Origin: Spirobacillus cienkowskii
Lineage (GTDB): Bacteria > Bdellovibrionota_B > Oligoflexia > Silvanigrellales > Silvanigrellaceae
Reading direction: 5' to 3'
DNA: 50,290 nucleotides
Assembly: GCA_003339605.1 (NCBI GenBank)
Contig: QOVW01000003.1
Span: forward strand, 1-50,290
Shown here: positions 17,508-48,892 of the stretch, one piece after another
How positions within the stretch are numbered: position 1 is the first letter of the stretch
Layout of the letters: every line of letters starts with the position of its first letter
Position numbers and translations under genes: made by a program
Notes under the pieces: model-generated
The model's input: only the letters and a program-made list of their open reading frames with translations
What the model was told of the DNA's origin: nothing
The model's database searches: none

Positions 17508-18770
17508 TTAATCTACATTAACAAAAAATTTTTCTAGTTTATCTGACCATACATTATTTATAGTATCATATTTATAAGAATGAATTTCTTGTTTACATGT
17601 GCCGTTTTTCTCTGAGAAATATCTATAATAATTTAATGTATTATTTTTATTAATTTTTTTCCAACTACCACTAAATTTCTTATTTTTTTTGCAAGTAATT
17701 ATATCAAATCTATCTTCTGGCATAAATAATTTTGTAGCAGTGTTAGATTTTTCATTATTTTCTTTTTTTGGAGATCTTTTAACTAATGACTTCTCGTCTT
17801 CAGAGTTAGCGTCTTCAGATCTCGTTACTTTTTTGTTTCCAGATAATCTGCTAAATACATCACGGCAATCCACTATATTTGACACTCCTTGTGGTACTCC
17901 ATACATAACCTGCAGCGTGCAAATATCAAGCCTAGTTAACTCTTCGGAAGGATTTGCCATTAATTTTAGCTCATCGCAACCTTCAAGTTTATCTAAATTT
18001 TCATACGCAAATGCTGCTGGGTTATTTAAATATTGTGGTAAACATTTTTTAGGAATCATGATAGGCAAAGTTGTTCCTGACTTTTGAGCTGTATAAGCAT
18101 GATATTGCATTCTTGAAGCATAATCATAATCTGTTACGCTCGAACTAAACTCTTCTTTTCTAATTTTATAATTCAACTGATTTTCCATTTTATCATTAGG
18201 ATGCAAATAATAATTTTCATTCAAATAAATAATATGATCATCCCTATCAGATCGTGTTTGTTCATGATCTACCCCCAAAAGATGCATAATTTCATGCAAA
18301 ATGTACCCATGAAATATTTCTTTTTTATAGGTTTTAGAAAAATTATCATATTTACCATATCTATAAAGACAGCTATCATCAATAAATAATGATTGTATTT
18401 CAGAGATTTTACCAATCCATGATCCACATGTCTGCCATCTTTTGTGTTTTTCATATTTTGTGATATTTACATAACTATTTTGAATACCACTCACTTCTCT
18501 AAATGAAATATTAGCATTTTTTTCAAGATACCTCATAACGCTTTTGATAGCGTTTTTTTCTATTTCATTATACTCGTTCAATGCAAATTGATAAGGAATT
18601 ATTCCATTAGGCCAATACCTAGCCATAATATTTCCAAATGAATCATAAACAACCGAGGGTATTGGAGCACTATCATAACGTAAACCATCTTTAAATTTAT
18701 CATATGATAATGAGTTCTTGCATAACATTGTTGTCATTAAACAAAATGTACTATAAATATATTTTTTCAT
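17508..18770 (-). CDS. Secreted astacin-family (M12A) zinc metalloprotease 1
   Basis: A 420-residue protein with a probable N-terminal signal peptide (MKKYIYSTFCLMTTML). A propeptide of about 30 residues follows, then an astacin catalytic domain entered at RYWPNGIIPYQF. The zinc-binding site HEIMHLLGVDH (159-169) continues HEQTRSDRDD, the family signature, and the Met-turn is SRMQY (219-223). The ~190-residue C-terminal part is Cys-containing and matches the neighbouring gene closely, including LTRLDICTLQVMYG and GTCKQEIH. A secreted endopeptidase is expected. It is 43 bases downstream of astacin 2 and so likely co-transcribed. The two arose by tandem duplication. Confidence 0.9.
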   Translation of the reverse strand: MKKYIYSTFCLMTTMLCKNSLSYDKFKDGLRYDSAPIPSVVYDSFGNIMARYWPNGIIPYQFALNEYNEIEKNAIKSVMRYLEKNANISFREVSGIQNSYVNITKYEKHKRWQTCGSWIGKISEIQSLFIDDSCLYRYGKYDNFSKTYKKEIFHGYILHEIMHLLGVDHEQTRSDRDDHIIYLNENYYLHPNDKMENQLNYKIRKEEFSSSVTDYDYASRMQYHAYTAQKSGTTLPIMIPKKCLPQYLNNPAAFAYENLDKLEGCDELKLMANPSEELTRLDICTLQVMYGVPQGVSNIVDCRDVFSRLSGNKKVTRSEDANSEDEKSLVKRSPKKENNEKSNTATKLFMPEDRFDIITCKKNKKFSGSWKKINKNNTLNYYRYFSEKNGTCKQEIHSYKYDTINNVWSDKLEKFFVNVD

Positions 18771-18813
18771 TTAAATTCCCTGTATTTGATGATAATATTT
18801 TTAATTTATTTTT

Positions 18814-20112
18814 TTAATCTATAATAATTTTTATTATATTTGGATTTTCAGGCCATTTTTTTTCTACTTGATCATATTCATAGGTATGAATTTCTTGTTT
18901 ACATGTTCCATCTTTTTCTGAGAGATAAATATAATAGCTTAATAACATATTACTTTCTTGAAATGTTTTCCAATCACTACTAAATTCCTTCTTTGTTTTG
19001 CAATTAATTATATCAATTTGATCACCTGACATAAATAATTTTGGAGCTATTTTATGTTTTTCATTATTTTCTTGTTTTGAAGATATTTTAATTAATAACT
19101 TCTCGCCATTAGCGTTATTGACTTCATCTTTTGTTACTCTTTTGTTTCCTGATACTCTGCTAAATAAATCGCTGCAATCCACTGGATTTGGTACTTCTTG
19201 TGGGTCTCCATACATAACTTGTAACGTGCAAATATCAAGTCTAGTTAATTCTTCGGATCTATTTATCATTTGCTTTATTTCATCACAGCCAACAATGCTA
19301 AAAACATTACGAATATGAAATATCTCAGGATTCTGACGGTATAACAGTTCACATTTTTTAGGTATCATTACAGTATAACCATCTTTTGATCCCGAATATG
19401 GGTGATATTGCATAATTGAATTAAAATCATACGAAGTTATGCTTGAAGTGAACTGTTCGTGGTTTTTTGTATAATTAATATTTTCCTCAATCTTAGATGA
19501 AGAAGAATTTTCTGGTAACAATACAATATGATCGTCTCTATCCTGTCTACTTTGCTCATGATGTATGCCAAGGGTATGCATCAACTCATGAAGTACAGTG
19601 CTATTATCAGGCAATTCAACTAAATTATAACCCTGGTACAATTTCTTATAAAGACAATTACGCCCTAATGCTAAAACTTGTTTAAAGTCTTTTTTAAATT
19701 TAACAAAATAATCTTGAAGACCAATATCAGATGAACAACCATAGTCCTCCCCTGTTGTTGAATTATATCTTTCAATAATTACATAATATTTTTCTTTATC
19801 AGTTTGTTCTATAAATTTAATTTTAGCGACTTGCTCTATTTTTCTCATGGCACTTAAAATTATTTCTTTTTGCTCTTCGGTATAATGATTCTCTGCAAAT
19901 CTGTAAAAAACCTTACCGTCAGGCCAATATTTTGCTCGATAATGAATTACCCCGTTATGTTCAGGAAAGTAAGACACTTCTGGCATAGGAGCACTTTCTT
20001 GTCTTAATTCTTCAACATTTAAAAAGTTAAAAGAATTTTCATTCGCATACGAAAACAAAGTAACAAATAAAGAACTAGAATATAAAACACAATTTTTTAA
20101 AAAAAAATTCAT
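18814..20112 (-). CDS. Secreted astacin-family (M12A) zinc metalloprotease 2
   Basis: A 432-residue paralogue of astacin 1 with a signal peptide (MNFFLKNCVLYSSSLFVTLF). The catalytic entry is KYWPDGKVFYRF, the zinc site HELMHTLGIHH (175-185) runs into HEQSRQDRDDH, and the Met-turn is SIMQY (232-236). The C-terminal extension shares long runs with astacin 1 (LDICTLQVMYG, FSR.SGNK.VT, NNEK, KLFM, GTCKQEIH), while catalytic-domain loops differ more. This suggests different substrate preference with a shared C-terminal role. AAGGG precedes the ATG at 20112. Confidence 0.9.
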   Translation of the reverse strand: MNFFLKNCVLYSSSLFVTLFSYANENSFNFLNVEELRQESAPMPEVSYFPEHNGVIHYRAKYWPDGKVFYRFAENHYTEEQKEIILSAMRKIEQVAKIKFIEQTDKEKYYVIIERYNSTTGEDYGCSSDIGLQDYFVKFKKDFKQVLALGRNCLYKKLYQGYNLVELPDNSTVLHELMHTLGIHHEQSRQDRDDHIVLLPENSSSSKIEENINYTKNHEQFTSSITSYDFNSIMQYHPYSGSKDGYTVMIPKKCELLYRQNPEIFHIRNVFSIVGCDEIKQMINRSEELTRLDICTLQVMYGDPQEVPNPVDCSDLFSRVSGNKRVTKDEVNNANGEKLLIKISSKQENNEKHKIAPKLFMSGDQIDIINCKTKKEFSSDWKTFQESNMLLSYYIYLSEKDGTCKQEIHTYEYDQVEKKWPENPNIIKIIID

Positions 20113-20436
20113 AAATTACCCTTATTTAAATAAATTAAAAATTGCTTATTAAAAAATAAAATTAAAACCAATTTATTAATAAACAGTTTGTTAAATTATT
20201 TGATTTTTTTTATATGTCAATTGATTATTTATATTTTTTAATAAATAATAAACAAAATTAATTTAATAATTATTAATTTTGTTTATTATTTATAATTATT
20301 ATTTATAATTATTATTTTTTATATTATTTTAAAATTTAATACTAATATTAATTATATAATAATTAATATTAGTATTAGAAAATAATTTTGTATTAATAAA
20401 TTTTTTAACTTTATATCTATATATACAATAAATTAT
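20113..20436. other. AT-only intergenic region with an 18-bp palindrome
   Basis: No gene. This 324-base region between astacin 3 and astacin 2 is almost pure A+T. It holds an 18-base perfect inverted repeat (20337-20354 with 20360-20377, five-base loop), 60 bases after the astacin 3 stop, which can act as a terminator for that gene. Nearby are direct repeats of ATTTATAATTATT (about 20288-20315). The rest presumably contains the promoter of the astacin 2-1 pair. Confidence 0.5.
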
Positions 20437-21531
20437 TTATAAATTTTGCTTATAAATAATTCCTTCTTCAGTTTCAGTCTTAGTCCAATTTCCTTCAGGC
20501 GATTTTACATACATAAAGTAAGTCAATGAACAACTCTCGCTATCTCTAGGCTTGTAAGAATAATAAGTGTGCACCATAGTATTTTCATCTACTGATACCA
20601 ACCATGGACTTTGTTTATTTTCTTTTATGCATGCATTCAACACTTCTTGATGACCGTTTGGTAAAACAAATTTTGCAGGTCCATACATTTTAGCTAAAGA
20701 CATTTTATCTCCTTCGCTCAAATCATTTTTCCAAACAGATATCTTTTTTAATTCATCACAACCTTGTAAATTTTGAACATTATAAAACTCATAGGCTTTA
20801 GGATTTGCTTTATAACTGTTATAGCATCTTGTTGGTAATAAAACAGGTAAATTATTATTTGAACCACTAAAACCATGATAATGCATGATAGAATCAAAGT
20901 CATAGCTCGTAAAACGAGAACTGCCTACATCTTCGTACCTTGTATAATTATGATTTTCGTGAAGTTTACCGCCAGAAAAATTTTCGTTTAATAATTTAAT
21001 GTTATTGTCTCTATCATGCCTTGTTTGTTCGTGGTGCATTCCTAAAACGTGTAATAATTCATGAAGAATGATACTTTTATCAATGCATTTTGATCCTAAA
21101 GTTAATATTTGTTTCCAATCATTTGATACTTTCAATTTTCCGACATGTGCTGAACACCAATATTCTTTACCACTTCCATCATGTTTAACAACTCTAATAA
21201 AATAATTATCAGGGCCCGCTCCTTCTACAAATTTAACCCTTGCAATTGATTCGAGATACTTCATTGATTCTCTAATTACTTTTTTTTCTTCTGGCAAATA
21301 ATGTTCTGGCTCAAATTTATAATAAACTCTCCCATCTGGCCACAAAGCAGTTTGTGGAACTGGAGCACTAAGGCTATCTTTTCCGCTTACCGGTGGTAAA
21401 AGCATATCGTTTTCAAATATATTTAAATAAAAATTTTTCATTACATTTTTATTCATCTCTGCTGATTTAGCTATTGAAATAGTTTGGAACCCTAAAAATG
21501 CAACTAATAAAACTCTAAATTTAACTTTCAT
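20437..21531 (-). CDS. Secreted astacin-family (M12A) zinc metalloprotease 3
   Basis: A 364-residue protein with a cleavable-looking signal peptide (KFRVLLVAFLGFQTISIAKSAEM) and catalytic entry ALWPDGRVYYKF. The zinc site HELLHVLGMHH (157-167) is followed by HEQTRHDRD, and the Met-turn is SIMHY (214-218). It belongs to the same family as the two downstream proteases but is more distant. It lacks their Lys/Glu/Asn-rich C-terminal linker and ends in its own short Cys-containing domain. AGGAGG precedes the ATG at 21531. It is separated from astacin 2 by an AT-rich palindrome, so it is probably its own transcript. Confidence 0.9.
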   Translation of the reverse strand: MKVKFRVLLVAFLGFQTISIAKSAEMNKNVMKNFYLNIFENDMLLPPVSGKDSLSAPVPQTALWPDGRVYYKFEPEHYLPEEKKVIRESMKYLESIARVKFVEGAGPDNYFIRVVKHDGSGKEYWCSAHVGKLKVSNDWKQILTLGSKCIDKSIILHELLHVLGMHHEQTRHDRDNNIKLLNENFSGGKLHENHNYTRYEDVGSSRFTSYDFDSIMHYHGFSGSNNNLPVLLPTRCYNSYKANPKAYEFYNVQNLQGCDELKKISVWKNDLSEGDKMSLAKMYGPAKFVLPNGHQEVLNACIKENKQSPWLVSVDENTMVHTYYSYKPRDSESCSLTYFMYVKSPEGNWTKTETEEGIIYKQNL

Positions 21532-40106: not shown

Positions 40107-43100
40107 TTAAATACCATTGATTATTGCTGTTTTAATTGTATCAAATTCATTTATAATAGTTAAATGCGTCGCAGAAGGAACATCAATAATTTTTAATTTA
40201 CTCACATCATCTAATAAATTAGAAATATTATTATCTTTTAAAAGAATAGAATAATTTAAATAATTATTTACATTTTTTAAATTACCACTTTTCCTAAATT
40301 TTAAAGCCTTTAATAAGGTAACATTAGAAAATTTCAGCTTACAAGAAATTTTCTGCGATAAAAACCCATCTTCAATATCATATATGGTACAAATTTTATC
40401 AATATAACTATTATCAAATCCTAAAAAATTAAAATCCTGTTTACCATATTTTAAAAATGTTTCGAGATTCATTTTATTTTTATTCATATAATCGTCAAAA
40501 TAAAATGAATCAAGTAAAAATAAATTTATATTTCTATGCCCCATAATTTCTAAAAGCGATGCAATCTCAAGACAAATAAAACCACCCAACGACCATCCCA
40601 AAAAATAATAATTTTGCTGCTTACATTTTAGCATATATGTTTCTATATGTTTAAGATAATAATCAGAAAGATGATTTAAACTTGTAATTTTATCATTATT
40701 ATTAAGATTATAAGAATCCACTCCTAAACAATAAAAATGATCTTGCAAATGTTCTGCTAATTTCGCATAAACTTCACAGCCTGAGCGTGCAGGATGCACC
40801 ATAAACATGATAGGATTTGAGGATTTTTTGTTTAATTCTACAATTGGTGTGTAATTTTTTGATTGATGCGTAATTTTTAATGCAATATTTTTAATATTTT
40901 TACTCACAAAAATATCTGAAAGCTTAATATCAAAACTTAAATTATTATTAATTTTATTTAAAAGCTTAATTGCAAATAAACTATTTCCTCCCAAATCAAA
41001 AAAGCTAGAATTTATACTAATTTTACTTTTAGAAATATTTAATATCTCACTCCAATAATCTAATAATTTAATTTCAATATCATTACTTGGAAGCTCAAAT
41101 TTAACTGTATTATGTTTATCAATTTTTGGTAAAGCAGCGACATCTAGTTTGCCGTTTGCTGTTAAAGGCAGTGCATCAATTTGCAAAAAATACTGTGGCA
41201 TCATATATGTAGGAAGTTTTGCTTGAACATAATTCCGTAAAAAATTGTGATCAATCAATAAATCAGATAAATCAGATAAATAATATGCAACCAAAAATTT
41301 ATTATTTTCAGAAAGTATCACAACTGAGTTTTTTATTCCAGAGTAAGAATTTATTACATTTTCTACCTCTTGCAACTCTACTCTAAATCCATTTAACTTT
41401 ACTTGAAAATCAATTCTACCATAATATTCTAATTCGCCATTTGGCAACCATCTTACAAGATCGCCTGTTTTGTACATCTTACGAAATAAAGATTTACCAT
41501 CATCTTGTATAGGAATAAATGGATTTTCAATAAAACTTTGTTTAGTAAAATCTTCATTTTTCCAATAATAATTTGCTAAACTTGAACCAGAAATACACAA
41601 TTCACCAACTGTATTAATTGGCAATAAATGTAAATTTTTATCTAAAACATAAGCTTTTAAATATCCAAATAATTTGCCAATAAATATACGCCCAAAATAT
41701 AAATCATGATTTAAATTATTTATTAAAAATTCTTTATATGTAACCTCTCCTGTTTCGGTTGGACCATAATAATTTATAAATCTAATACTATCCAAATATT
41801 TATTAATTAATCTTATATCTAATGGCTCACCACTTAAAACTATTCTATTAATTGACTTTAAATCAAATAAATTAACCAACTCCGCAAAAACCTTAAATTG
41901 AGATGGTACAAAATGACAAATATTTACCAAATGTTTTTTTATCAAAAATTCAATTTCGGAAATATCAAAATGGTTTTCTGTAACAACCAAAGAGCCTCCA
42001 GAAGTTAGCGTTGTAAAAATATCAGAAAAAGAAACATCAAAAATATAATTTGTTTTAAAAAGATAAACATCTTTTGATGACATTTTATTAATAGAAGCCA
42101 TTTTATTAATTCTTAAAAGGCAACTTTCATGAGGCATTGCAACACCTTTAGGTACGCCTGTAGTTCCAGAAGTATAAAGTAAATATGCCAAATCATTTAT
42201 TGCTACACTGGTGCTAATATTTTCTGAAGAATACTCTGAAATTTTATCTATAACAATATTCACATTTACAAAATTATTATAACAATTATTAAATATTTTA
42301 ATATTATAAGAATCAATTAAAACTATAATAGGATCAGCATCCTTTAATATATAATCAATACGATCTTTTGGCGTATTTGGATCTATTGGTAAGTATGCTT
42401 TACCAAGCTTTAATATTGCTAAAATAGATATTATCATTAAATCACTTCTATTTTGAATAATAGCAACAAAATGACTTTTAGAAATATTAAAATTAATTTT
42501 GATATAATTTGCAAGCTGATTGGATTTACAATTTAATTCAAAATAATTTATTATTTTATCTTTAAAAATTAAAGCATTATTATTACTATAATTTATAACA
42601 CAGTTCTCAAATAAATCTATAATACTGCTGTACTTAGTAAAATCAATATCAGTAGAAATATTTAAATTTCTCACCAAATTTTCTTGCTGAGTATTGATAA
42701 ATGAAACTTTTTTAAATATTTCTTCGGGGTAAATAACAACTTTATTCAAAACGCCTACAAAATATTCCAACATCTCATCTATGATTAGATCTTCAAATAG
42801 CTCACCTGCATACTTAATTTTAAACTGTATTCCATTTTCTAATTTATAAACTATAGCAGATAAAGGATAATCTAATGTCTCATAAACTTCATCAAAACAT
42901 ATAGATAAAGATTCATCTATTTTGTTAATAAATTGCATTGGATAATTTTCATAAACAAAAATAACATCAAATAATCTATTTTCTCCATTATAAATTTTAA
43001 AAAAATCAGCATGACTTTTTTCATTCATTTCATTAATTTTATCTTGTAATAATTTGATTATTTCGATAATTTTAGTATTACTTGTTTTTGCAAGGTTTAT

Positions 43101-46100
43101 ATAAAAAGGAAGTGTATTAATCAGTAGACCAACAACATTTTCTACTCCAAAAATAGGCAAGTTTCTTCCTGATACAGTAGTTCCTATAACCATTTTTTCT
43201 GCATTTCCATATACACTTAAAAGTTTACAAAAAGCGAAAAAAACAATCGCATTAATTGTCACAGAATATCTTACAGATAAAGATTTAATATTATCAAAAG
43301 TAGAGTTATCAATATTTAAAATTTTTTCTTTTTGTGTTCTAATATGTCTATAATTAGCAAAATATAATTTATTATTTTTTGCACTATTACAAAATAAGCA
43401 CGATAAATCAAGATTATTCTCCATAGTTTTAATGCAATTATTCCAATAATCAATATTTTTATCCATTTCTTTACTAATAAGCTTAAATGTATCGCTATAT
43501 ACTGTATCATATTTATTTTTTATTATTTTCTCGCCTTTATTGTATAAATCGTGCACCTCACTCAATAAAATAGCAATACTCCATCCATCTATTGCAGAAT
43601 GATGCGCACTAAATAAACAAGTGTACAAATTTTTATATTGTTTAATAATACAAATTCTAATTAATTTTCCATTTTTTAAATTAAAATATTCTAAACGATC
43701 TTTGGTTTTATAATTTTTTATAAATTGATTTTTTTGTAGTATATTTTTCTCGCTGATATCGATATAGCGCCAATCTAGTTTTGTATTCTTATCGATAATT
43801 TGAATAATTTCTTCGTCCCACGCAAATCTTAATCTAAAAATTTCATGTTTTTTAGCAGTATTTTCCCATGCAATTTTTAGTTGTTCTAAATTTAAATTTC
43901 CTTCATAATTAAACGAAATTTGATTAAAATATGCACAATCATCATATTGTTTATTGAGCGAATGATAAATTAGCCCACTTTGCAAATAAGTTGTTGGTAA
44001 TATATAATCAATTTCATTTTTAAATTGTATGTTATTTAAATAATTTTGCGATATAAAAAAATCAACATCGCTTAAAGTTAAATATTTTCTGTCATATTTT
44101 GCAATTTCATTAATAGAGTCAATTAAATATTTTTTAAATAACACACCAAAATTATTTAAAGAATTTATTATAATTTGACCTTCAAAATAAACATATAATT
44201 TTTGATTAAATATTAATGAATTGCAACATATATAAAAATCTTTAAATTTAGACGAATAAAATGAGCGACCACTATTCTCTTGAACAAGACTCCATTTGTT
44301 ATCTTGACTATTAAAAATTTCTTTATTTTGCTCAATAGTACCAAAATAATTAAATAATATTTTAGGGGACAATTTACTAGAATAAGAATAAAATGCACCA
44401 TATCCAATACCATTATTGGGCACTTTTTTAAAATAATCTTTTACATAACAAATTTGCTCTGCAAAAGTTTTTTTGACTTCTAATTTTACAGGAAACATGT
44501 TAGAAAACCAACCAATTGTATCGAGTATGTCAAAAGTAGAATCTACTTCGTTACGTCCATTTCCCTCCATCATAATATAATGCTCTTTAGCATGTGTAAT
44601 ATTATACAAAGCAGAAACCATTGCTGAAATTAAAAGATCTTGAACTGTAGTATTAAAAATAGGATTTACTTTATCGAGAATTAAACGTGTTTCAGATAAT
44701 TCAAAATCAACAGTACAATAATTTATATCTTTACTTTTATTTATTAATAAATAACTCATTAAATAATTATTTATTAATTTAAAATTATTTAACACATCAT
44801 CCCAATATTTTTTTTCGTTAAAATTTTCTGATGAATAATTTTTAATTTTTTCTGCCCATTTTAAATAACTCGTTCTTTTTAATAATAATTCATTATTATA
44901 ATATAAATTAAACAAATCGTTTTGTATTATTTTCCAACTAATAGTATCTATTAATAAATGATGAACTGCAACAAATATTCTAGCTGTATTATTATTAAAC
45001 CCATAAATATATCCAAAAGAATAGAGTGGCCCATGCTCTAAGTTAAAATTATTTTGCCAATCTTTTAAAACATTTAATAGCTCATTATTAAAATCTATAG
45101 ATTCCTCAAAGCTAATTAAATCTTTAATATTTAATATTTTTAAGTCAGTATCAATTTTTTTGTCTTTATAAACCTGAATCCAATTATTGTTATTTTTTTT
45201 AAAACTTATCTTAAATGTATCGTGAATATTAATTAACTTATTAATAGACTGTTTTAAATTTTCTAGATCAAGTATACTTGTTTTGATTAAAAAATAATGA
45301 TTCCAATGTTCAAAATTAGCAAATTTATTAGCAAAAAACCATTTCTGAATTGGCAATAAAGGATATTCACCAGATGCAGCTTCAATATTAGACAAATAAT
45401 TTAAACTAGATTGTTTGTTTAATAGCAATTCAATATATTTTGAAATATTTTCTATAGTTTTTAATTTAAGAATGTCTTTAACATTTAATGTTAATTTATA
45501 ACTACTTCTAATTCTGCTTACTGCTTGAATTGCTTTAATGCTATCTCCGCCCAAACTAAAAAAATCAGAATGGATTCCAATAAAACTTATATTTAATCCC
45601 AAAATTTCGGCCCAAATAGAGCATAATTTTTGTTCTATACTATTTCTGGGTGTAACAATATTTAAACTTTCTTTAATTTCTGGATTAGGCAGTAATTTAA
45701 TATCTATTTTTCCATTATTATTTAATGGAAATTTATCTAAGTTTATATAAAATTTTGGAATCATAAAATGTGGTAATACTTTTTGTAAATATTCTATTAT
45801 TTGGTTATCTTGAATAGATATATCAGATACATAATAGCAAATAATTGTTTTATTGTAATTTAAACTTGGTGTATCTAATTTTTTAGCAAGTATATAAACT
45901 TTTTTTATTCCTTTTATACTTAAAATTGTATTTTCAATTTCTTCTAGTTCTATTCTAACTCCACTAATTTTAACTTGAAAATCGTTTCTCCCAATGTATT
46001 CAATTATTCCATTTGATAATCTTCTAACCAAATCTCCCGTTTTATAAATTTTAGAATTTATATTATGTTTAATTTCATTTTCATTCTGAAATGGATTTTT

Positions 46101-48587
46101 AAGAAATTTTACTTGGTTTAATTTGTCTCTATTTAAATAACCAGCACAGAGTCCAACGCCTGTAAGATACAACTCTCCTATTGCTCCATCAGGTAATGGT
46201 TGCAAGCTATTATCTAAAATATATGCCTTATGATTATACACCAAGCTACCAATACAGTTAGCTTCTAAAAAATTAGTATACTTATGCATAAAACACATAA
46301 CAGTATTTTCTGTTGGCCCATATGCATTATAAATAACTTTATTTTCCTTTAAATACTCTTTAACTATTAAGCTATTTGTTTTATCACCTGCTACAAACAA
46401 CACATCTAAGTTTAATGGCCTTTCTTTATTGAGTATAACCGGTGGAAGTACAGCTAAATTTATGCCATTATCATCAATAAATTTAGCTAATAAATTATAA
46501 TCTTGTCGAGTTTCTTCATCTACAAGGTACAATTGATTTCCCAATAACAGTCCACTGATCAATTCCCAAACATGAGCATCAAATACAAAACTCGAAAAAA
46601 ATAAGACTTTTATTTTTTTATTAAAAAATTCATTTTTTAAATTATTTTTTTGAAATTCAATTAAATTTGATACACTTTCATTTTTAATTAAAACTCCTTT
46701 TGGCTTCCCAGTTGTTCCTGACGTATAAATTAAATATGAAATATCTTTTTTTCCAATATTAATATTAGGATTATTTCTATATTTAATTATATTATTTGTA
46801 TCTAAAAATTCATCATTAAAAATTAAATTATTTAGCAAATTAAAGTTATTTTTAATTTTTTGTGTTATTCTTATATTACTATTCATTATTAGTATATTTA
46901 ATTTTGTATCATCAATAATAAATTTTATTCTATCAAATGGATATTCTGGATCAATTGGTACATAAACCGCTCCAGATTTTAATACAGATAAAATCGCAAT
47001 TATTAAATGCTCACTTCGCTCCATTAGCAATCCAACATAATCACCTTTATGAACATTAAATTTATCAATTAGATAATTGGATAAAATATTTGCCTTATTA
47101 TTAAGTTCAGAGTAGCTCATATTTTTACCATTAAAATGCAATGCATTATTTTTTGGAAATTTAACTACATGATTTTCTAAATATTCTATAGGTTTTTTAT
47201 ATTTAAATTTTTTTTCATATTTTTTATTCCAATCATAAATTACTTTTTTTTCTTCGCATTTATCCAAGAGATGCAGCTGGTTTATTTTTAACTTACTAAA
47301 TTCATCGCTTTTACTAAACATAAAATCAATTATTTGATTAAAAATATTTTTATAATTTTTACATAAATTTTCTATTAATTGTTTAGAAATTTTTTTATTT
47401 TTATAATTAATTCTAAATTTAATTTCATTAGAAAATTGCTGAACTTCAAAGACAAAATCATGGGTAAGTGCAATATTTGAATTTTTTGTTGGCTGCACAT
47501 TTAAATTATTAAAATTAAATGATGTTTGCTGCAAAAAAGCGCTTGAAAAACCAATAGAACTAAATTTATTACTCTTTTTTGAAAATACGTTATACATTGG
47601 AAAATAGTTTAATCTATATTCTTCGTTTTTTAGTGATTTTAAAAAAATCTTTGTTTCTAAAATCAATTCTTTAACAGTTTTTTCACCATTAATATTAAAT
47701 GGAATAAAATTTATATTTACGTTAGCTCCGTAAAATAATTCAATTCCCTCTTTAATAGAAATGGGATATGCAATTATAAAATTATTTTGATTTGTATATT
47801 TATACAAAGTAATGGCATACACAATTTTTGAAAACAGATAGTTTGTAATTGCAAATTTTTTTCTTATCGCAGACATTTTGTCAAAATATTCTCCTGTAAT
47901 AGAAAAATAGATTTCTTCAATTCCAAAAATTTTTTGATTTGTTAATTCTACTCTATCATTTTTACTAAAATCAGTATTTTCTATTAGAAATTCTATGTTT
48001 AATACGTCATAATTTTCTATTTTACTCATCCAAAAATCATAACATATGTTATAGTATTTTTTAATTTCATTTTCCAATTTTAAAGAAAATTCTATTATAT
48101 TATTTTTTTGATCATCAATAGAAATTGGGTATCGGTAATTATTTAAATTATAATATTTCGAAACTTCAGCATAAAATTGCTCTGCAGATGCACCATCAAT
48201 AATTGCATGATGTAAAATATAAATTAGTCTATACTTATTTTCATCAATTTTAAATAATCCATATCTATATAATGGACCACTTTCTAAGTTAAATTCTCTT
48301 TGCAAAAAAATTTTAATTTCACTGTTAATATTTTTATCAAAATATTCTAAATCTAATACTTCATTATTTTTTTTCCAGTAAAATTTTTCATTTATCTCAA
48401 CAACATGTGCATTAAAAATAAAAATATCTTTTATCATATTTTTTAAACAAATATTAAGTTTTTTGTAATTAATTTCTCCTTCAATAGTTTGATCGATCAC
48501 CATGTGATAATCTGTTCTTTGAGGATTTAATTTCCATTCAAAGTAAAACACGCTCTGAAATGGAGATAATGGAATACTCTGATCCAT
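40107..48587 (-). CDS. Dimodular non-ribosomal peptide synthetase, C-A-T-E-C-A-T-TE
   Basis: A 2826-residue NRPS. Domains: C1 about 5-440 (HHAIIDG 126-132). A1 465-965 (core YTSGTTGKPKG 621-631, A10 lysine K960). T1 with carrier Ser1016 in LGGDSI. E 1070-1500 (HHLLIDTISW 1209-1218, EGNGR 1341-1345, TIGWFSN, FNYFGTIE). C2 1525-1960 (HHSAIDG 1662-1668). A2 1985-2485 (core 2138-2148, K2480). T2 with Ser2536. TE 2590-2826 with GWSLGG (Ser2666) and a late His2808. All core motifs are intact. Predicted product: a two-residue peptide with D-configured residue 1, released or cyclised by TE. The leading C domain suggests N-acylation or input from another protein. A1 pocket reads D-A-W-V-F-A-A-V-M-K (Leu/Phe-like); A2 reads D-V-S-H-V-S-Y-E-V-K, not recognised. 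It is Asn/Ile/Lys-rich with strong AT codon bias and has no tailoring genes beside it. Confidence 0.95.
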   Translation of the reverse strand: MDQSIPLSPFQSVFYFEWKLNPQRTDYHMVIDQTIEGEINYKKLNICLKNMIKDIFIFNAHVVEINEKFYWKKNNEVLDLEYFDKNINSEIKIFLQREFNLESGPLYRYGLFKIDENKYRLIYILHHAIIDGASAEQFYAEVSKYYNLNNYRYPISIDDQKNNIIEFSLKLENEIKKYYNICYDFWMSKIENYDVLNIEFLIENTDFSKNDRVELTNQKIFGIEEIYFSITGEYFDKMSAIRKKFAITNYLFSKIVYAITLYKYTNQNNFIIAYPISIKEGIELFYGANVNINFIPFNINGEKTVKELILETKIFLKSLKNEEYRLNYFPMYNVFSKKSNKFSSIGFSSAFLQQTSFNFNNLNVQPTKNSNIALTHDFVFEVQQFSNEIKFRINYKNKKISKQLIENLCKNYKNIFNQIIDFMFSKSDEFSKLKINQLHLLDKCEEKKVIYDWNKKYEKKFKYKKPIEYLENHVVKFPKNNALHFNGKNMSYSELNNKANILSNYLIDKFNVHKGDYVGLLMERSEHLIIAILSVLKSGAVYVPIDPEYPFDRIKFIIDDTKLNILIMNSNIRITQKIKNNFNLLNNLIFNDEFLDTNNIIKYRNNPNINIGKKDISYLIYTSGTTGKPKGVLIKNESVSNLIEFQKNNLKNEFFNKKIKVLFFSSFVFDAHVWELISGLLLGNQLYLVDEETRQDYNLLAKFIDDNGINLAVLPPVILNKERPLNLDVLFVAGDKTNSLIVKEYLKENKVIYNAYGPTENTVMCFMHKYTNFLEANCIGSLVYNHKAYILDNSLQPLPDGAIGELYLTGVGLCAGYLNRDKLNQVKFLKNPFQNENEIKHNINSKIYKTGDLVRRLSNGIIEYIGRNDFQVKISGVRIELEEIENTILSIKGIKKVYILAKKLDTPSLNYNKTIICYYVSDISIQDNQIIEYLQKVLPHFMIPKFYINLDKFPLNNNGKIDIKLLPNPEIKESLNIVTPRNSIEQKLCSIWAEILGLNISFIGIHSDFFSLGGDSIKAIQAVSRIRSSYKLTLNVKDILKLKTIENISKYIELLLNKQSSLNYLSNIEAASGEYPLLPIQKWFFANKFANFEHWNHYFLIKTSILDLENLKQSINKLINIHDTFKISFKKNNNNWIQVYKDKKIDTDLKILNIKDLISFEESIDFNNELLNVLKDWQNNFNLEHGPLYSFGYIYGFNNNTARIFVAVHHLLIDTISWKIIQNDLFNLYYNNELLLKRTSYLKWAEKIKNYSSENFNEKKYWDDVLNNFKLINNYLMSYLLINKSKDINYCTVDFELSETRLILDKVNPIFNTTVQDLLISAMVSALYNITHAKEHYIMMEGNGRNEVDSTFDILDTIGWFSNMFPVKLEVKKTFAEQICYVKDYFKKVPNNGIGYGAFYSYSSKLSPKILFNYFGTIEQNKEIFNSQDNKWSLVQENSGRSFYSSKFKDFYICCNSLIFNQKLYVYFEGQIIINSLNNFGVLFKKYLIDSINEIAKYDRKYLTLSDVDFFISQNYLNNIQFKNEIDYILPTTYLQSGLIYHSLNKQYDDCAYFNQISFNYEGNLNLEQLKIAWENTAKKHEIFRLRFAWDEEIIQIIDKNTKLDWRYIDISEKNILQKNQFIKNYKTKDRLEYFNLKNGKLIRICIIKQYKNLYTCLFSAHHSAIDGWSIAILLSEVHDLYNKGEKIIKNKYDTVYSDTFKLISKEMDKNIDYWNNCIKTMENNLDLSCLFCNSAKNNKLYFANYRHIRTQKEKILNIDNSTFDNIKSLSVRYSVTINAIVFFAFCKLLSVYGNAEKMVIGTTVSGRNLPIFGVENVVGLLINTLPFYINLAKTSNTKIIEIIKLLQDKINEMNEKSHADFFKIYNGENRLFDVIFVYENYPMQFINKIDESLSICFDEVYETLDYPLSAIVYKLENGIQFKIKYAGELFEDLIIDEMLEYFVGVLNKVVIYPEEIFKKVSFINTQQENLVRNLNISTDIDFTKYSSIIDLFENCVINYSNNNALIFKDKIINYFELNCKSNQLANYIKINFNISKSHFVAIIQNRSDLMIISILAILKLGKAYLPIDPNTPKDRIDYILKDADPIIVLIDSYNIKIFNNCYNNFVNVNIVIDKISEYSSENISTSVAINDLAYLLYTSGTTGVPKGVAMPHESCLLRINKMASINKMSSKDVYLFKTNYIFDVSFSDIFTTLTSGGSLVVTENHFDISEIEFLIKKHLVNICHFVPSQFKVFAELVNLFDLKSINRIVLSGEPLDIRLINKYLDSIRFINYYGPTETGEVTYKEFLINNLNHDLYFGRIFIGKLFGYLKAYVLDKNLHLLPINTVGELCISGSSLANYYWKNEDFTKQSFIENPFIPIQDDGKSLFRKMYKTGDLVRWLPNGELEYYGRIDFQVKLNGFRVELQEVENVINSYSGIKNSVVILSENNKFLVAYYLSDLSDLLIDHNFLRNYVQAKLPTYMMPQYFLQIDALPLTANGKLDVAALPKIDKHNTVKFELPSNDIEIKLLDYWSEILNISKSKISINSSFFDLGGNSLFAIKLLNKINNNLSFDIKLSDIFVSKNIKNIALKITHQSKNYTPIVELNKKSSNPIMFMVHPARSGCEVYAKLAEHLQDHFYCLGVDSYNLNNNDKITSLNHLSDYYLKHIETYMLKCKQQNYYFLGWSLGGFICLEIASLLEIMGHRNINLFLLDSFYFDDYMNKNKMNLETFLKYGKQDFNFLGFDNSYIDKICTIYDIEDGFLSQKISCKLKFSNVTLLKALKFRKSGNLKNVNNYLNYSILLKDNNISNLLDDVSKLKIIDVPSATHLTIINEFDTIKTAIINGI

Positions 48588-48892
48588 TGTAACTTCCTAA
48601 TGTTTAATTTTTATATGACTATTTTTATATTTTATAAAAATTAGTATTAATAAAATTTTACCTAGATCTTTTAAACTTTATATAATTTAAATTTTTATAA
48701 AAAACTTGATATTATCCAATTAATAAATAACTATTTTAAACTAAAATTTGTAAAATTCAAAAATCAGTATAGCATATCTTTTCTTAAAAATAAAGAAACA
48801 CTAATAATTTTATTGTATTATTTTTTAATTGGTCTTAATTTTTTAAATAAACAGACGATTGCTTAAAAGTACAAAGGAGTGAATATTAAAAC
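48588..48892. promoter_or_regulatory. Divergent promoter region of the NRPS and the chemotaxis receptor
   Basis: No gene in these 305 AT-rich bases between two divergent starts. AGGAAG lies before the NRPS ATG on the minus strand and AAAGGAG before the receptor ATG on the plus strand. Several TATAAA/TATAAT-like boxes occur (for example near 48640 and 48680), too many in this AT context to choose a promoter. Confidence 0.35.

Follow-up and report, generated by a model that had tools for sequence, protein, structure and literature searches.

The 50,290-nucleotide stretch of Spirobacillus cienkowskii DNA analysed here (the window) contains a complete nonribosomal peptide synthetase (NRPS) gene, which we read as encoding a self-contained enzyme of two modules that would make a short N-acylated dipeptide and would have arisen via a trimodular ancestor, a reading to which we give slightly more than even weight. 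The direct evidence consists of the domain content and order, the integrity of the motifs, the classes of the epimerization domain and of the DCL-type condensation domain behind it, the lack of a partner NRPS, and the presence of a PPTase and a FadD-type ligase; our inferences beyond these concern acylation by C1 and its donor, both amino acids, the mode of release and the biological role. "Candidatus Spirobacillus cienkowskii" is a red-pigmented, uncultivated pathogen of Daphnia (PMC6284087). The 8.5 kb gene is the sole NRPS in the draft genome of this classic pathogen, and what it makes is a candidate metabolite for interaction with the host or for action against other bacteria.

Architecture and genomic setting

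A single unbroken open reading frame of 2826 codons occupies positions 40107-48587 of the minus strand, with an ATG at 48587, a stop codon at 40109-40107 and the ribosome-binding-site-like sequence AGGAAG immediately 5' of the start. Based on Pfam matches, domain boundaries and motifs, the encoded protein has the order C1-A1-T1-E-C2-A2-T2-TE, made up of condensation (C), adenylation (A), carrier (T), epimerization (E) and thioesterase (TE) domains as follows.

40107..48587, minus: complete NRPS gene, C-A-T-E-C-A-T-TE, 2826 aa (ORF, translation, Pfam)
47268..48587, minus: C1, N-terminal condensation domain, residues 1-440, HHAIIDGAS (Pfam, trees, AlphaFold, Foldseek)
45678..47225, minus: A1, adenylation domain, residues 455-970, code DAWVFAAVMK (Pfam, code reading)
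45420..45638, minus: T1, carrier domain, residues 984-1056, LGGDSI (Pfam, motif)
44058..45365, minus: E, epimerization domain, residues 1075-1510, HHLLIDTIS and EGNGR (motifs, TIGR01720 below cut-off, trees)
42678..44006, minus: C2, DCL-type condensation domain, residues 1528-1970, HHSAIDGWS (Pfam, trees)
41118..42620, minus: A2, adenylation domain, residues 1990-2490, code DVSHVSYEVK (code and motif reading)
40863..41081, minus: T2, carrier domain, residues 2503-2575, LGGNSL (Pfam, motif)
40110..40826, minus: TE, type I thioesterase, residues 2588-2826, GWSLGG, LLD and ATH (Pfam, motifs)
48588..48892, no strand: intergenic region between the NRPS gene and a divergent MCP gene (promoter signal no higher than by chance)

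Whole-protein E-values were 3.9e-138 for Condensation (three matches: C1, E and C2), 1.7e-121 for AMP-binding (two), 1.9e-28 for PP-binding (two) and 3.7e-12 for Thioesterase (one); since the scores lie far above the curated cut-offs, chance matches can be dismissed. Besides the condensation-fold, carrier and thioesterase motifs listed above, both A domains contain the A3 motif YTSGTTG, YGPTE and the A10 lysine, and C, A and T domains with catalytic motifs follow one another in series, as in a type I modular NRPS. The preliminary description of this DNA, which had proposed two full modules, an epimerase and a thioesterase within one 2826-residue protein in the order C-A-T-E-C-A-T-TE, is borne out by the reading frame, Pfam and the motifs; the strand, which it did not give, is minus. 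The gene is poor in GC (23.1%, with 14% at third positions) in comparison with the window (30.5%). A promoter scan returned 85 sites against 83.3 expected from shuffled sequences, which is no excess, and a terminator scan found none.

The neighbours of the gene in the window are housekeeping genes (maeB, pepQ, an MCP gene, leuS and others), and, as had been noted before, no tailoring, transport or carrier-activating gene accompanies it there. The window also holds three tandem genes for astacin-family (M12A) metallopeptidases with signal-peptide-like N-termini (17508-21531, minus strand), which could possibly encode secreted host-tissue proteases of the Daphnia pathogen. The genome behind the window comprises 2,736,227 bases in 126 contigs and is approximately 96% complete, which leaves a small chance of a missing piece; the published draft is described as 126 contigs, 2,739,001 bp and 32.1% GC (PMC6284087). 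A search of this genome for the condensation family returned only three stretches, all of them inside the NRPS gene, so that its stand-alone status holds and an upstream NRPS partner can be rejected for the window strain. Further PF00501 matches in the genome correspond to one FadD-type and one acetate-CoA ligase, together with an unclassified protein of 404 aa; C1 thus has no upstream peptidyl donor in the approximately 96% of the genome covered.

A candidate carrier-arming enzyme is encoded on another contig, where a 229-aa Sfp/EntD-type PPTase represents the sole PF01648 match in the genome; its 4PPT_N and ACPS domains score above the Pfam cut-offs and NCBIfam models score below theirs. A missing PPTase was thus rejected. 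No MbtH gene was found in the search for one, nor was a fatty acyl-AMP ligase or an exporter linked to the NRPS. PADLOC gave no match, and a defence-system reading of the locus was rejected for that reason. The main text of the two genome papers on S. cienkowskii (PMC6284087, PMC12321486) mentions no NRPS.

Domain classes, substrates and the proposed pathway

Trees were built from 265 condensation-fold domains of the window, its relatives and 80 loci, labelled by their place in the protein; a second tree also included labelled bacillomycin D domains of Bacillus velezensis, among them labelled LCL and DCL domains and no labelled starter (Cs) domains. The E domain grouped with E domains (support 0.998) and with the labelled bacillomycin E domains (0.992), C2 grouped with DCL domains, i.e., those that follow an E (0.949), and neither placement changed when the labelled BamB and BamC domains were added. 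These assignments uphold the logic of a D-configured first residue that the preliminary description had put forward. The post-E model TIGR01720 matches the E domain below its cut-off. Where HHxxxDG is expected, the E domain has HHxxxDT, and its relatives carry A, V, S or T at the glycine, so that HHLLIDTIS is a family trait rather than damage; EGNGR stands where several relatives have EGHGR. The LGGDSI form of the carrier motif, present in T1, usually precedes an E domain.

C1 falls within a long-branched, lineage-specific clade made up solely of N-terminal C domains (eight of eight family members at support 1.0; 10 of 10 at 0.84-0.89 with two others included), and the labelled LCL and DCL domains lie outside this clade in both trees, which hold no labelled Cs. 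Its identity to relatives in the same genus is 36-49%, a FYFEWKL-like N-terminal motif is common to them, and the domain is kept in every family member, including the decayed ones. Outside the family, matches among the genome contigs searched reach at most approximately 30% identity; a metagenome bin (L035) carries a family member whose C1 is 35% identical. Like a starter domain, C1 is N-terminal, stands ahead of the first A domain and has no upstream NRPS partner. An AlphaFold model showed a good C-domain fold (pLDDT 79.7, pTM 0.80), and Foldseek ranked TycC, Txo2, CmnI, SrfA-C and the starter domain of RzmA close together, RzmA being tenth among near-equal matches; despite the good model, Foldseek fails to separate C subtypes, and a subtype assignment from the fold was rejected. 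By sequence, RzmA scored approximately 25 bits, versus 43-59 for BacC, TycC and TycB.

The preliminary description had left two roles for C1, an N-acyl start or acceptance from an upstream partner. The second falls away with the lack of any other C domain, which makes N-acyl initiation the likelier of the two, and C1 is probably an acyl-accepting starter domain. The pairing of an LCL-type C1 with a second NRPS in the genome, which the same description regarded as contrary evidence, was not what was found. In the starter domains of RzmA and HolA, the position of R148 and A149, respectively, sets acyl length, and HolA Cs is C8-selective (PMC7804268). The corresponding residue in C1 is Ala135, as in HolA, and, if C1 works like these domains, this would suit an acyl chain of medium length.

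A motif-anchored reading gave the codes DAWVFAAVMK for A1 and DVSHVSYEVK for A2, in which positions 330 and 331 (E and V) were taken from the ungapped motif YGPTETGEV. The A1 code is presumably nearest to those for Phe (DAWTIAAICK) and Leu (DAWLYGAVMK), and A1 most likely loads a hydrophobic residue, Leu or Phe. For the A2 code we know of no match among known codes. Its pocket residues H278, S301, Y322 and E330 are polar, three homologues conserve the form DVSH[V/M]SYEV in the A domain of module 2, and the combination Y322/E330/V331 occurred in no other of 242 A domains screened. In the literature searched for A-domain codes, the GrsA code alone was found, once.

Taken together, these features are consistent with the following pathway. 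The PPTase encoded elsewhere would arm both T domains, after which A1 would load its hydrophobic substrate (Leu or Phe being the likeliest). C1 would then N-acylate the loaded residue, probably from acyl-CoA, and the E domain would convert the acylated residue to the D form. The DCL-type C2 would couple this D residue to the second one (X2), loaded by A2, and the TE would free N-acyl-D-X1-X2 as a linear acid; a ring could form instead if X2 supplied a nucleophile or if two units were linked. Among the release products proposed earlier, a simple diketopiperazine would be improbable with an N-acylated first residue, whose amine would be blocked. A bolder extension, namely that the clade of C1 represents a so far undescribed kind of initiating C domain confined to Silvanigrella-like bacteria, that the A2 code stands for an unassigned building block and that the product is a new type of acyl-dipeptide, is possible but rather doubtful.

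Relatives, origin and alternative readings

The NRPS family was searched for in six further genomes from this GTDB genus, one of them that of Fluviispira multicolorata. F. multicolorata 33A1-SZDP (contig NZ_WFLN01000004) and genome G004 encode a 4409-aa homologue with the order C-A-T-E-C-A-T-C-A-T-E-TE, and G004 has further copies, a trimodular one of 3930 aa and a 2399-aa C-A-T-C-A-T-TE protein. In the 3406-aa homologue of G006 (L020:4249-17284), the second A domain is degenerate and module 3 has no A, which makes it either decayed or an unusual assembly line; a separate C-A protein, which might load modules in trans, follows it, and the homologue is similarly GC-poor (23.0%). G002 has a C-A-T protein. 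Members of this Silvanigrellaceae family, of which the literature searched gives no description, are alike in the distinctive C1, in homologous E, C2, A2 and TE domains and in the A2 code, which is kept in the trimodular enzymes. They differ in order, being C-A-T-E-C-A-T-C-A-T-E-TE, C-A-T-E-C-A-T-C-A-T-TE, C-A-T-C-A-T-TE or decayed, whereas the window gene consists of module 1, E, module 2 and TE.

The A2 domain of the window has its orthologues in module 2 of the trimodular homologues (A domains, bootstrap 95), so that the gene looks like a trimodular synthetase minus module 3. Its starting module and TE group with the 2399-aa version from G004 (97), and the two differ in their second modules, the window gene retaining module 2 and the 2399-aa version a module-3-type C domain. 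On the simplest reading, a trimodular ancestor in the Silvanigrella/Fluviispira group gave rise to the window gene by loss of module 3 and to the 2399-aa version by loss of both E and module 2; since support for the order of the deeper branches is low (53 and 55), this direction of module loss is likely but unproven. The relatives form a compact natural series of module loss, from three to two modules by two routes, plus decayed copies, and the series keeps the start and end domains, which makes it useful for locating NRPS recombination. Each family member found sits at a different genomic place, and the maeB-adjacent site has no NRPS in the relatives examined. At this site, which the NRPS gene occupies in S. 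cienkowskii, G006 has a Pfam-confirmed three-gene RND efflux operon (L152:3567-8964), and in G004 the position is taken by three ORFs of corresponding size (L151:2270-7664).

A second S. cienkowskii genome (G056; one contig, 2.81 Mb), which we infer to be that of the Finnish strain, carries the NRPS gene at the same locus (L135:3522-11876), with 97.2% protein identity. Here, the TE is cut short by a frameshift of one base, so that its final 42 residues, among them the catalytic His, are lost; the rest of the frame is open. The Finnish assembly is described as nanopore-based (PMC12321486), which means that the frameshift may be a sequencing error as well as strain decay. Between the two strains, dN/dS was 0.36 overall, with 0.11 for TE, 0.20 for C2, 0.24 for E and 0.43 for C1; the value of 1.08 for A1 is rough, resting on only 4.5 synonymous changes. 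The gene is under purifying selection between the two strains; the neighbouring maeB and pepQ show zero amino-acid changes. G056 has one additional condensation gene, which encodes a partial NRPS protein (C-T-C, 689 aa) and lies with an ABC transporter in an island of approximately 4.9 kb (L136:6300-11233). The flanks of the island lie approximately 44 bp apart on one contig of the window strain (L144, G000:C71), and so it is truly absent there.

Several findings weigh against the N-acyl reading itself: RzmA-type Cs domains were not favoured as matches, no acyl-AMP ligase, MbtH or exporter is linked, the TE of G056 has no His end in its assembly, A1 appears unconstrained, and no relative has a known product. 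If C1 were inactive or idle, A1 would start the chain as in GrsA or TycA, and a free dipeptide or a D,L-diketopiperazine would result. TEs and dimodular NRPSs that release dipeptides are known in general, and the lack of a close match to known starter C domains fits an idle C1; yet the HHxxxDG motif is intact, the 36-49% identity and the FYFEWKL-like motif extend across species, and the domain has been retained in every family member with a dN/dS below neutrality, all of which makes an idle C1 unlikely. It is somewhat less likely still that C1 takes a non-fatty starter, such as an aromatic or polyketide acid from a type III PKS-like enzyme, to yield an aryl- or polyketidyl-dipeptide. A chalcone/stilbene-synthase-like gene with a methyltransferase (L016:1214-3471) does lie just upstream of the 4409-aa homologue in G004, and a homologue of the PKS-like gene is present in the window genome (G000:C90). 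However, no such pair accompanies the NRPS in Fluviispira, in G006, at the other copies of G004 or in the window, identity to the Spirobacillus copy is only 32%, and every genus member searched has similar copies, including some with differing NRPSs.

An equally small chance is given to the gene being a decaying remnant that is kept by chance and makes no current product. Its low GC content, the A1 ratio, the TE frameshift in G056 and the clearly decayed versions among relatives, such as that of G006 (degenerate A2, no A3), all point that way, but in the window strain 2826 codons are open with every catalytic motif in place, the overall and TE dN/dS values indicate constraint, the remaining frame in G056 is open, and the frameshift sits in a nanopore-based assembly. 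Iterative use, in which the TE would join at least two N-acyl-dipeptide units into a cyclic dimer by the logic of gramicidin S or enterobactin, appears highly improbable. The TE is of type I with an intact triad, as iterative NRPSs such as EntF and GrsB have type I TEs; however, N-acylation would block head-to-tail dimerisation unless the X2 side chain is nucleophilic, and no feature separating cyclising from hydrolysing types was found in the TE sequence.

Comparison with known synthetases

The module order of this NRPS is already known, and the nonribosomal peptides of its lineage appear to be undescribed in the literature searched. NCBIfam models for individual synthetases scored far below their cut-offs (aureusimine 899/2500, myxochelin 495/2300, enterobactin 531/2400 and solanimycin 699/2200 bits) and were rejected. 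A plasmid search returned thousands of generic matches, all below 60% identity, and was useful only for labelled bacillomycin genes. The analysis as a whole turned up no characterised homologue sharing this C1.

A known homologue of the same architecture, which the preliminary description had considered a challenge to its reading, does exist as far as the order is concerned. BamC, ItuC and MycC of the iturin family (for bacillomycin D, L147) have the order (C)-A-T-E-C-A-T-TE, in which the TE of BamC is presumably a family feature, the TE profile having given no match on the BamC record. BamC and the window NRPS are 28% identical over 2559 columns, and the labelled E and DCL domains group with those of the window NRPS. 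In contrast to the window NRPS, BamC comes at the end of an assembly line with seven modules, in which BamA and BamB feed it; only part of its first C domain is present in the record (L147), and it has no starter C. Since it belongs to a larger assembly line, its product is not transferable to the window NRPS, and a terminal synthetase of the iturin family was rejected because the genome, with no other C domain, has no BamA/BamB-type subunit.

The starter C domains of RzmA and HolA (rhizomide, holrhizin) resemble C1 in standing N-terminally before the first A domain, in the HHxxxDG motif and in the equivalence of Ala135 with A149 of HolA (PMC7804268), but identity by structure alignment is approximately 14%, with no special closeness in sequence or fold. 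Synthetases of the EntF/AB3403 type (C-A-T-TE) share the N-terminal C domain and release by a type I TE, and differ from the window NRPS in having a single module and no E domain.
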